26,981 nucleotides of DNA from a virus: positions 1 through 26,981 of IMG/VR virus record IMGVR_UViG_3300023174_000561; one strand, written 5' to 3'. Below the pieces are notes generated by a model. That model was not told the DNA's origin and did not search any database. It saw nothing but the letters and a program-made list of their open reading frames with translations. Both the position numbers and the translations under genes were made by a program. Within the stretch, counting starts at the first letter, position 1. Every line of letters begins with the position of its first letter. Below are positions 358-8,374 of the stretch, one piece after another.

Positions 358-1224
358 TTATTTTTTTCTATGTTTTCTCCCGCCACCTTTTATCCAGCCA
401 GTTGGAATATCTTGAGAAATGGGATGTCTTTTAATTTTATTTGTGGTCGGATCACATATAAAAATATATTTTTCTATACATTTTTTACCAGTGCCTTTTA
501 TCCATCCATCGGGTATAGGTATATCGGGATTATGTCTTTTAAAAATATTACTGATTTTGTTATAGATATAAATAGAACCCTTGCCTGATATTTTCGATAC
601 AAGTTCTTTATTGTTTTCACGGGATTTTAAAATACCATCTTTAATATTTTTTTTAGATTCTTCGGATCTTTTCATACCCCTGTGTTTGTCGGCCATTTTT
701 TTAATTTTTTCAGGGTTTTTATTAATTTTTAACATTCTTTCTTTATGTTTTTCTGGATTTTCTTTTATCCATTTTTTAATACCAATACTTTTTCTTGTAT
801 TTATTTCCGGATTATCAAAAACCTTTTCTCTCATCATTTTTTTATATTCTTCCGATTTCCATCTTTTTTTAAATCTTGCTGATATTTTTTTAATCGCTTT
901 TGATGACCATGCACAAGGCCCATAACCACCTTCTTTGATGTTATATGTATCATTTCTTTCTATAAATTCTAATGTTACTAATTTTTTTTCGGCGTCAAGT
1001 GCTTCTTGATATGTATTATAAAAATTTAATATTGTTTTTTTAAAATTTTCTATTCCATATTTTTTTATGGATCTTTTTAAATTAAGACCAGACCCCATAT
1101 AACCATCATCTATATTGTCTGTCCTATGGACTCCTATATAAATTTTACCGTTTTTAATATTTACAATTTCATATAAATAATTGTATTTTCTATTTATTTT
1201 TGGATCGTTTAAATGTTTCTTCAT
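358..1224 (-). CDS. Free-standing GIY-YIG homing endonuclease in the break of the split terminase intein
   Basis: The protein has 288 residues. The N-terminal GIY-YIG nuclease domain (about residues 15-100) shows YLY at 17-19, the YIG triplet at 29-31, the family stretch DGYMGSG at 40-46, a candidate catalytic Glu near residue 79 (AEKK) and YNIKEGG at 94-100. The middle is Lys-rich and helical, as in the modular DNA-binding tails of phage GIY-YIG enzymes. Two related C-terminal stretches (IPDGWIKG and IPTGWIKG) look like small repeated DNA-binding elements. The gene sits exactly between the two halves of the terminase, 47 bases after the N-part and 1 base before the C-part, all on one strand. 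The likely role is homing into intact or unsplit terminase intein alleles. The target site is not known. Confidence 0.88.
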   Translation of the reverse strand: MKKHLNDPKINRKYNYLYEIVNIKNGKIYIGVHRTDNIDDGYMGSGLNLKRSIKKYGIENFKKTILNFYNTYQEALDAEKKLVTLEFIERNDTYNIKEGGYGPCAWSSKAIKKISARFKKRWKSEEYKKMMREKVFDNPEINTRKSIGIKKWIKENPEKHKERMLKINKNPEKIKKMADKHRGMKRSEESKKNIKDGILKSRENNKELVSKISGKGSIYIYNKISNIFKRHNPDIPIPDGWIKGTGKKCIEKYIFICDPTTNKIKRHPISQDIPTGWIKGGGRKHRKK

Positions 1225-1236
1225 TATAAATACTTA
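1225..1236 (-). promoter_or_regulatory. TAAGTA-type box before the GIY-YIG gene
   Basis: TAAGTATTTATA lies directly against the endonuclease ATG, in the short gap after the N-terminal terminase gene. It matches the box seen before many other genes here, so the endonuclease may be transcribed on its own. Confidence 0.4.
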
Positions 1237-1271
1237 TACACGATATTTTATTATAGATGAATTTGCTTATA

Positions 1272-3011
1272 TCAATCATTTAAAACTATAAAATGTGGAG
1301 GTTCGTCTTGATTATTTTTTAACAATTCTTCTAGATCTTTTAGATTAATTTTAAACACTTCTTCTGTTTTTTTATCTTTTAATGTTACAATTGTATCACC
1401 AGCAACACAATTTATACTTTGACCTCTAACAGCAGAAGCAGAAGTAGAAGAAACTATAATACTTGACCCATTACTAAGATCGAATCCATTTTTTCTATTA
1501 GATTTTACAGCTGGTTTTAAATATACAGGCAATTCCTCAAAAGCCATTTTTATACGAGAGAATATTTCCATAGCAGTATCAGCCTTATTAGCCAATATAG
1601 CAACTTTTTTATATTCATGAAAGCATACTAACCATAAAGCATACATTGAAACAATTGTGCTATTGTGAGTAGGTATTAAACTTTTTCCACATAGATATAA
1701 AGAATCTGGACTATCTACGGTAATACATCTAACAGGAACACTTTCTATTTCTTTAATATCTTTTATATAAAAATATTGATTTCTTTTAGATGTTGACAAA
1801 TCAGTTTTTACAAATCTAGAACATTTAAAATCCGAACAAGTAACACATTCTCTTGGTTTAAAATATAGAATACCACATTTTTTATATTCTTTATCTTTAA
1901 TTTTAGGTATTTTTTCATTATATTTTACCTTATATCCTAAACTTTCTATCAATTCTTTTACTTGTAAAATTAAAGGTATATTAGTATTATAAAAAATAGC
2001 ACTTCCGTTTTTTTCAATATATCCATCAGAATCCATTAAACCTTTTAAAAGCTCCATTCTTTGATGTTTGGATGCTTTTAAAAATATATCAGGTATATGT
2101 TTATTTTTAAATAAATTATTAGTTCTTAAATGATAGTATAAAGAATTTTTTTTATCTTCGTTAGTTAAATTTACAAGAAAATTGTCTTTTTTATATTCTT
2201 TAACACTTATAATTTTATAAAAATCTAATTCTTTTATCTTTTTTAAAATAGAATCTATATCTCTTATTCCTATCGTTATTCTAGAATCATTCGAATGTCC
2301 ATCTCCTAACCACAAACCTAAAACATATGGATTTATAGGTAAATTCTTGTTATCATTATATAAACCATCTACACACGAAATTATACGATGATTTGGTTCT
2401 CCGCTTAATGTCGTTAAAGTTTTTAAAATTTCTTCTGTTGTTTTTGAACAACCTTTACTTTTTTTAGTTTTTCTATCATTTCTAGTTTCAGTAAACCAAA
2501 GATGTTCAGCATCAGCGATTATTTTTTCACCGTTATCAAATAATATTTCATAACATTTTCTATCGTGTAATATATCATGCGCTTTTGTTACGTTGTATAT
2601 ATTTCCGTCAGAACCATATATTTTATCTCCGGTTTTTAAATCTCCCATTTTTAAAAATCCATTTGGAGTTGGTATAGGAGTTTCAACAGAAAGAGCTTTT
2701 CCCATCTGTCTCGAAGCACATACCAACAATCTTCTTTCATCCTTTAAACTTTTTAATATCCTTTTTTGATATTTTCTAAGTTTAATTTTTATTTTGCCTT
2801 CGTCTAGATTTACAATATGAAAATGTCTTTCAGCAAAATGCAAAATACTTTTAGCACAAGTTCTGTTCTCATCAAACATTTCTTGGGTAAAAACAATTTT
2901 TGCGTTTTTATTTAAAAGGTTTTCATTGCCTTTATAATATCCACCATCAACCAAAATATTATCTTTATCAACTTCAGGTATTTCCGGTATAGGTGCTTTT
3001 TTTCTTGGCAT
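1272..3011 (-). CDS. Terminase large subunit, N-terminal part, with one complete intein and an N-intein
   Basis: The product has 579 residues in four parts. Residues 1-105 are the N-extein, ending in the Walker A start CASRQMGK. Residues 106-450 are a complete intein. Residues 451-534 resume the ATPase (STIVSMYALW ... ASAVRGQSIN), which restores a P-loop of the SRQMGKS type. Residues 535-579 are an N-intein (CVAGDTIVTLKD ...) followed by a stop. The rest of the terminase, starting at Walker B, is encoded separately at 1-356. The family (T4 gp17 type) drives ATP-dependent DNA packaging at the portal. The start is the only good ATG, one base after the upstream gp53-like gene. This gene alone cannot give a working ATPase because Walker B and the nuclease domain are missing. 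Confidence 0.93.
   Translation of the reverse strand: MPRKKAPIPEIPEVDKDNILVDGGYYKGNENLLNKNAKIVFTQEMFDENRTCAKSILHFAERHFHIVNLDEGKIKIKLRKYQKRILKSLKDERRLLVCASRQMGKALSVETPIPTPNGFLKMGDLKTGDKIYGSDGNIYNVTKAHDILHDRKCYEILFDNGEKIIADAEHLWFTETRNDRKTKKSKGCSKTTEEILKTLTTLSGEPNHRIISCVDGLYNDNKNLPINPYVLGLWLGDGHSNDSRITIGIRDIDSILKKIKELDFYKIISVKEYKKDNFLVNLTNEDKKNSLYYHLRTNNLFKNKHIPDIFLKASKHQRMELLKGLMDSDGYIEKNGSAIFYNTNIPLILQVKELIESLGYKVKYNEKIPKIKDKEYKKCGILYFKPRECVTCSDFKCSRFVKTDLSTSKRNQYFYIKDIKEIESVPVRCITVDSPDSLYLCGKSLIPTHNSTIVSMYALWLVCFHEYKKVAILANKADTAMEIFSRIKMAFEELPVYLKPAVKSNRKNGFDLSNGSSIIVSSTSASAVRGQSINCVAGDTIVTLKDKKTEEVFKINLKDLEELLKNNQDEPPHFIVLND
1275..1409 (-). other. N-intein (45 aa) of atypically split terminase intein
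   Basis: It begins with the block A signature CVAGDTIVTLKD directly after the terminase sequence RGQSIN and ends at the TGA at 1272-1274. No block B (TxxH) occurs before the stop; that block is found in the C-fragment at 15-356. The helix-like part KINLKDLEELL resembles the end of short N-inteins of the AceL-TerL kind. About 13 further residues follow that part. Confidence 0.88.
1662..2696 (-). other. Complete intein (345 aa) with LAGLIDADG endonuclease in terminase Walker A; class 3 features
   Basis: The intein starts with Ala (ALSVETPIPTPNGF) right after the terminase GK and ends PTHN before Ser. Local numbering shows block B as ADAEHLW with Trp67, block F as RCITVD with Cys324, and block G as PTHN with Thr343. 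Ala1 together with this W/C/T triad is the signature of class 3 inteins, which start splicing by attack of the block F Cys. Two LAGLIDADG-like motifs (VLGLWLGDG at 125-133 and LLKGLMDSDG at 216-225) mark an embedded homing endonuclease. Removing the intein joins GK to ST and rebuilds the P-loop. Confidence 0.9.
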
Positions 3012-7594: not shown

Positions 7595-8374
7595 TTAACC
7601 GATAAAAAATAAAGGATCTATTTTTATTGTATATGATTCGTTTTCTTTTTGAATAGTTAGAAAATCATCAACATTTTTTTTCCACTCTGACACAACATTT
7701 AAAATTTCTTGTATTAGACTAGCTGGCATTTTTTCTACCAGTCTGATTCTTTGTTTAAAGGTTAAAGGCAACATATCAATATGTTGGTCGTTAATTTTTA
7801 ATTTTTTAATAGATTTTGCTAATTCTCCTATAAAAGCATTAGATATAACTTCTTGTATATCGTCGGTATTTTTAATATCTTCTGCTTTTTTATTATCCTT
7901 TAATATTGTTTCATCATAATCTTTTTCTTCTAAAATATAACTAGGATAAATTGTTATAAATATATTATTATGAGATAGTACAGTTTCTTTTGGGTGTGTA
8001 TAATTCTTTTTAAATTCTGCTATTACCGGAGAAATATCAACATCAATTTTATCATCTTTTTGTTGTATTTTGATAATATTAGATACTTTTTCACGCAATT
8101 GTAAACATATCAATATTTTATCTAATATAGTAAATTCGGAAATATCTTCAGATGAATTGTTTTTAATTATTTCATATAAAGCACTGTTAAATTTTTTACT
8201 ATAAATACTGCTATCCATAGAACCTGTTAAAATATCTTTTTGTTGTAGTGCTGTAATCTCGTTGAATTTTACAGTTTTATTTTTTGAAGGAATCCAAACA
8301 TCAAAAGAATAACTGTCAGCAATTTGGGTTAATTCTATTAGGGCTTTATTAAAATCTAAAATATCTTCTTCCAT
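7595..8374 (-). CDS. Baseplate hub assembly protein, gp26-like (copy 2)
   Basis: The product has 259 residues. An N-terminal stretch (KTVKFNEITALQQKDIL) followed by a helical region matches the layout of T4 gp26-type baseplate proteins, in which a short beta element leads into an EIT..Q..L helix. The C-terminal stretch LTFKQRIRLVEKMPASL has a clear counterpart in the next gene upstream (LSYEQREVLYNKLPLSL), so the two are paralogs. In T4, gp26 and gp51 act in assembly of the central hub. Lying just before the tape-measure candidate, these proteins could also act as tail assembly chaperones. There is no sign of the programmed frameshift often used by chaperones of that kind. Confidence 0.5.
   Translation of the reverse strand: MEEDILDFNKALIELTQIADSYSFDVWIPSKNKTVKFNEITALQQKDILTGSMDSSIYSKKFNSALYEIIKNNSSEDISEFTILDKILICLQLREKVSNIIKIQQKDDKIDVDISPVIAEFKKNYTHPKETVLSHNNIFITIYPSYILEEKDYDETILKDNKKAEDIKNTDDIQEVISNAFIGELAKSIKKLKINDQHIDMLPLTFKQRIRLVEKMPASLIQEILNVVSEWKKNVDDFLTIQKENESYTIKIDPLFFIG

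Follow-up and report, generated by a model that had tools for sequence, protein, structure and literature searches.

The stretch of DNA described here (the window) is the complete IMG/VR virus record IMGVR_UViG_3300023174_000561, which comprises 26,981 bases and comes from a T4-like phage. At one end it carries a terminase gene, terL, that is broken by a split intein, with the gene of a GIY-YIG homing-type endonuclease lying in the break. The host gene is thus present as two open reading frames (ORFs), each with one intein half at the break, and the order within the break is N-terminal intein half (IntN), 47 bp, GIY-YIG gene, 1 bp, C-terminal intein half (IntC), all of these being encoded on the minus strand. 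The ORF for the N-terminal part of TerL (1272-3011), which is identified by PHROG terminase matches, consists of the N-extein with a contiguous intein inserted at Walker A, and ends with IntN and a stop codon at 1272-1274. IntN itself (1275-1409) has 45 residues, begins with Cys1 in the sequence CVAGDTIV, ends VLND and is conserved in relatives. The free-standing nuclease gene (358-1224) encodes 288 residues. IntC (15-356, with its ATG at 356) has 114 residues, starting MADL and ending ILSHQ, and is followed by the start of the terL C-extein (3-14), of which the window holds only four residues (CLIV) before the contig ends. The catalytic positions of the split intein are present (Cys1, TPKH and Cys+1), the terminal residue being Gln, and the two halves may trans-splice TerL.

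A preliminary description of this locus, made from the sequence alone, had reported a split intein served by a free-standing GIY-YIG gene with gaps of 47 bases and 1 base, as well as two complete inteins with embedded LAGLIDADG enzymes in the window. Both statements are borne out, the first by the ORFs, their coordinates and the Pfam, Protein Data Bank (PDB) and Foldseek matches, the second by Pfam LAGLIDADG domains in the contiguous inteins of terL (Walker A) and NrdA. It had also given the nuclease gene a promoter-like box of its own. A box resembling a T4 late promoter, TATAAGTA, is indeed found at 1231-1238 (minus strand), 6 bp 5′ of the GIY-YIG start codon; however, the motif is common 5′ of the genes of this phage, with ATAARTA occurring within 30 nucleotides upstream in 10 of 25 window genes compared to 2.2 in shuffled upstream sequences, and it was rejected as a special mark of the nuclease gene. 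A Shine-Dalgarno sequence, by the pattern used, occurs at one of the 25 gene starts.

PHROGs, Pfam, PDB profile and AlphaFold/Foldseek comparisons agree that the 288-residue protein is a GIY-YIG homing-type nuclease with an I-TevI-like catalytic domain (about residues 14-97; 934-1185, minus strand). It exceeds the Pfam curated cut-offs both for PF01541 (24.2 bits; cut-off 22.6) and for PF19835, SegE_GIY-YIG (26.1 bits; cut-off 25). A PDB profile search matches it to the I-TevI catalytic domain (1ln0/1mk0; E=0.013-0.016), and its AlphaFold model matches the same domain with a Foldseek probability of 1.00. The IntC profile finds the consensus TerL intein CatC (6dsl_B; E=8.9e-10), which places IntC among the TerL inteins with an atypical split, those of the AceL/GOS-TerL type. 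A PDB search with IntN alone gave no meaningful match, and no relatives emerged when the IntC profile was run against bacterial and archaeal genomes. In the AceL-TerL and GOS-TerL inteins, IntN has 25-37 residues and the consensus form of IntC has 104 (PMC11766414). The window shares with them the TerL host, the short IntN, the long IntC and the CatC profile match, but differs in an IntN of 45 residues and in having Gln, not Asn, as the last residue of IntC.

Arrangements of this kind are known, as is the type of intein. In the ‘fractured genes’ reportedly described by Dassa in 2009, a conserved phage enzyme gene is broken by a split intein and a free-standing endonuclease gene lies in the break; about half of the published loci are said to carry a Vsr-like (EDxHD) nuclease, and control elements are also said to have been brought in with the nuclease. 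The window family has the same gene break, split intein and endonuclease between the halves, but differs in having a GIY-YIG nuclease in terL, a series of stages of nuclease decay, and an inverted copy of the putative homing site. The window nuclease has only GIY-YIG matches in Pfam and no Vsr-like match, a Vsr nuclease not being a required feature of fractured genes.

The inverted copy in the 47-bp gap, which from its sequence has the look of a regulatory feature, is what appears to be new here; within the limited set of papers searched, no earlier report of a regulated nuclease in a split intein was found. It occupies about 27 bp (1244-1270, plus strand), is separated by 5 bp from the TATAAGTA box, and corresponds to the terL sequence directly 3′ of the intein insertion site. 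Read on the strand opposite to terL, the window leader gives YFIIDEFAY, which resembles the Walker-B peptide of terL. Relatives were collected by scanning viral contigs with IntC, the GIY-YIG protein and their alignments, which yielded 33 distinct loci (individual loci are given below as L followed by a number) and an IntC tree; the IntN / GIY-YIG / IntC order is seen again in over 20 different viral contigs and so is no chance arrangement. The leaders of other loci likewise encode Walker-B-like peptides, namely RLILEEIAF, CIILDEIAY, QFIFDEYAF, CIIIEKTAF, HFVLDEMAF and LFILDECAF. Since plain DNA matching of a leader to its own terL is weaker and uneven, the copy was assessed with a profile of 27 positions, built exclusively on the C-extein DNA of terL (23 sequences), and compared with dinucleotide shuffles. 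Of 20 non-redundant leaders, 17 score as significant (p<=0.0215 in each), and ten of the 17, including the window, reach the lowest attainable value, 0.0005. No signal comes from the leaders in sense orientation (Fisher p 0.46), and among 53 control leaders, from related GIY-YIG genes outside terL, two reach p<=0.05, which is about the expected number. Copy and terL are alike only over codons +1 to +10 past the insertion site, where identity is 0.57; in the flanks it is 0.28 and 0.30. A recognizable copy is retained even in two loci without a nuclease, L069 (p=0.002) and L076 (p=0.018). In L058 (2344-2680), IntN and the inverted copy are separated by an additional small ORF (about 300 bp), and the copy still adjoins the nuclease gene.

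Several observations weigh against the view that this copy is an operator of the nuclease gene. Three of the 20 leaders (L028, L094 and L100) have no significant copy and the leader of L102 is too short to hold one, so that the copy must be dispensable; a leader of this type is missing from L080 and L081, which are the most divergent loci. A profile scan of the whole window ranks the leader second of ~54,000 positions, and a single leader is therefore no proof, the evidence being recurrence at the same place across lineages. The best match in that scan, at 7705-7731, is antisense to the gene at 7595-8374 and is probably due to chance. The combined Fisher value of 2.6e-29 must also be an overstatement because the leaders share descent.

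It could be suggested that the copy acts as RNA that base-pairs with the downstream terL message at its Walker-B region and so controls translation or decay of that message. The duplex energy of copy and terL is better than that of shuffled copies in 17 of 18 loci, as it would be for any inverted repeat, and the match of a copy to its own terL is slightly above that to the terL of other loci (18.8 compared to 17.6 of 30 nucleotides; permutation p 0.0024). Nevertheless, in seven of the 18 loci, among them the window, the copy pairs less well with its own terL than it does on average with the terL of other loci, there is no sign of compensatory change, and we regard a role of this kind as very improbable.

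It is well supported that the nuclease and the split intein belong together and spread as one unit, which was one of two possibilities raised in the preliminary description. The association is strict: all GIY-YIG loci fetched by profile with E<=3e-39 to the window protein have IntN and/or IntC alongside. More distant, Seg-like relatives (E>=5e-34) lie outside the terL break, one of them (L016) being located ~2 kb from an intein-less terL. The distances between GIY-YIG proteins correlate with those between the IntC halves (Mantel rho 0.55, p 0.0005), and this value is above that for IntC and extein (0.38). An empty site is also present among the relatives, as the terL gene of L163 is uninterrupted at the exact insertion site, with a C-part that is 61% identical. 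A further tie between the two is the inverted copy of the terL sequence beside the insertion site, whose presence in the leader of the nuclease gene would be expected if that sequence is what the nuclease recognizes. In addition, the window and L002 are 99.4% identical over a stretch of 1,664 bp that begins at the Walker-A site and takes in the split intein and the nuclease, compared to 88-94% upstream, with the shift in identity falling at the site of the Walker-A intein; this is compatible with a recent exchange, for which ordinary recombination could also be enough.

The same evidence bears on the proposal that the nuclease is an opportunist that cuts elsewhere and has settled in a harmless place within an intein that was already split. 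Its family has relatives among the Seg nucleases, which are free-standing and cut at a distance, and there are two lineages split with neither nuclease nor remnant (L057 and L060/61) and two loci with other genes in the break (L074 and L079), all of which would be in keeping with such a history. The strict confinement of the GIY-YIG clade to this break and the terL-derived copy 5′ of the nuclease gene are not, and we consider the proposal improbable, although less so than a function of the copy as RNA.

All 33 surveyed loci are split, and the IntC halves inspected begin with a conserved MAD, except in L080 and L081. The GIY-YIG gene looks intact in 24. In one (L028) it is broken across two frames, which could in part be a sequencing error, although its remnant-bearing sister L069 (support 100/97 on the IntC tree) argues otherwise. 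Four loci (L024, L059, L069 and L076) keep only remnants of the C-terminal repeat of the GIY-YIG protein. The break in the L057 and L060 lineages holds just 2-8 bp. The break of L079 contains a nuclease with a Vsr match below the Pfam cut-off, the only such match among the relatives, and L079 is sister to a GIY-YIG locus (support 99/90); in L074 (980-1465), a 161-residue ORF without any Pfam match takes the place of the nuclease. A two-state count on the tree gives five changes in nuclease presence, of which the well-supported branches alone force two when loci are labelled by intact GIY-YIG genes. These counts, together with the sister placements, imply that decay and replacement of the nuclease happened more than once. 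The split outlives the nuclease, which is repeatedly lost or replaced, and the stages can be seen side by side in one family: intact gene, broken gene, remnants, clean loss, replacement and empty site. The preliminary description had held that split relatives without the nuclease and with unrelated genes at the same break would speak against its proposal; loci of this kind do exist in part, in the two lineages and two loci just described, and the tree reads them as loss and replacement.

How the split arose is a related question. The preliminary description had also suggested that a nuclease gene invaded a contiguous intein gene and so split it, an idea that Dassa is said to have put forward in 2009 for other loci. 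In most loci, the stop codon of IntN sits at the very edge of the inverted copy, so that IntN is truncated exactly at the cassette edge. The four loci with remnants and the nuclease-less loci that are still split are in keeping with invasion, and L035, whose related intein occupies a neighbouring position in terL and is contiguous, shows that such inteins can be whole. Against this, the survey of relatives gave no contiguous intein at the terL site of the window, and it is for this reason that creation of the split by the nuclease, although plausible, stays circumstantial. The nearest to a contiguous version at this site is L080, where the nuclease ORF is fused in frame to IntC. In L080 (2727-3842) the GIY-YIG ORF is in frame with IntC and the terL C-extein, so that nuclease and IntC would be one protein, and the terminal residue of the intein is Asn, not Gln.

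The position of the IntN stop could equally be invoked for a different account, in which intein and nuclease do form a composite mobile element but the copy is a fossil of cassette capture, a piece of terL carried along in the opposite orientation with no regulatory role. That the copy begins at the IntN stop, and hence at the cassette edge, in most loci would fit this account, as would the nuclease genes that do without a copy (L094 and L102). A fossil in an AT-rich gap would, however, be expected to decay, whereas the copy keeps codon-periodic conservation even though the GIY-YIG proteins are down to about 45-50% identity. We think this account unlikely, if the least so of the alternatives to an operator.

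The precedent for an operator comes from I-TevI of phage T4. The I-TevI operator is identical to the homing site at 15 of 20 positions and overlaps a late promoter; I-TevI binds both sites with equal strength, yet its cutting of the operator is reduced ~100-fold, since the operator lacks a properly placed cleavage sequence (PMC2988022). The window gene shares with I-TevI the GIY-YIG catalytic domain and a putative homing-site copy beside a late-promoter-like box 5′ of the gene. In contrast, I-TevI resides in a group I intron, whereas the window gene lies in a split intein and its copy is inverted relative to terL. A second precedent is collaborative homing, in which a free-standing nuclease presumably acts on the site where a splicing element distinct from it is inserted (PMC10448857, PMC2988022). 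Here, too, there is a free-standing nuclease, a presumed insertion-site target and an empty-site allele among the relatives (L163), but in this case the part of the splicing element is taken by a split intein, with the nuclease gene located within the break.

On balance, we favour, with some reservation, a reading in which the split terL intein and the GIY-YIG gene form one composite selfish element, whose nuclease would target intein-less terL and limit itself through the leader copy. The insertion would do little harm because the intein halves would trans-splice TerL. The nuclease would recognize the terL Walker-B sequence starting at the intein insertion site, which would thus be the homing site, and would cut intein-less terL alleles. 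The cut would most likely be on the N-extein side if the nuclease binds Walker B, as a cut elsewhere would leave the carrier of the intein unprotected; by parting the two sides of the site, the intein would shield the carrier, and repair would copy intein and nuclease together, as in collaborative homing. The leader copy would represent the binding side of the junction, that is, the C-extein side, without the other side. By analogy with the I-TevI operator, the nuclease probably binds this copy and stops its own transcription without cutting, and autorepression through a copy of the homing site would in turn imply that intein-less terL is the target. More tentative, and not quite an even prospect in our estimation, is the combined proposal that a nuclease in a split intein is autorepressed via an inverted copy of its homing site and that the cassette edge bearing this copy also supplied the stop that truncates IntN.

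If this is true, control in the style of I-TevI extends to inteins, and the leader copy reveals the target of an uncharacterized nuclease from sequence alone; the targets of other homing nucleases that have not been assayed might then be readable from their own leaders. Two open questions are touched upon, the origin of split inteins and how an intein and the gene of a nuclease come to move as a single unit.

A hairpin across the start of the nuclease gene, as in T4, was also considered and is not general, the z-scores being mixed. In L028 (3955-4020), a hairpin of -21.3 kcal/mol (shuffled mean -5.7) spans the start of IntC and contains TATAAATA; it resembles the hairpins that control T4 homing nucleases.

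The contiguous Walker-A intein of the window (1662-2696, minus strand; GK|ALSVET...THN|STIV) has a LAGLIDADG domain and starts with Ala. It is missing from the near-identical L002, where the flanks are joined exactly (2883-2945), and is therefore a presence/absence polymorphism. In cultured T4-like phages (L030, L031, L033, L036, L037, L039 and L043; Krischvirus, Tequatrovirus, Tegunavirus, Gelderlandvirus, Jiangsuvirus and Thanatos-2), terL is split at a neighbouring site, YIDE|CAFI, and is annotated as two terminases and a hypothetical protein; in those tested, HY03 and JK32, the nuclease has TnsA-like/Phage_endo_I matches. The Vibrio phages L038, L041 and L042 have their split intein at a third site in terL, and here IntN continues at its C-terminus into a fused GIY-YIG domain. 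Campylobacter phage CP21 (L034:338-4624) has a split intein, apparently at the terL site of the window, with a T5orf172 nuclease in the break. It also has a second intein, a contiguous mini-intein located about eight residues downstream (DE|C), and one more at Walker A.
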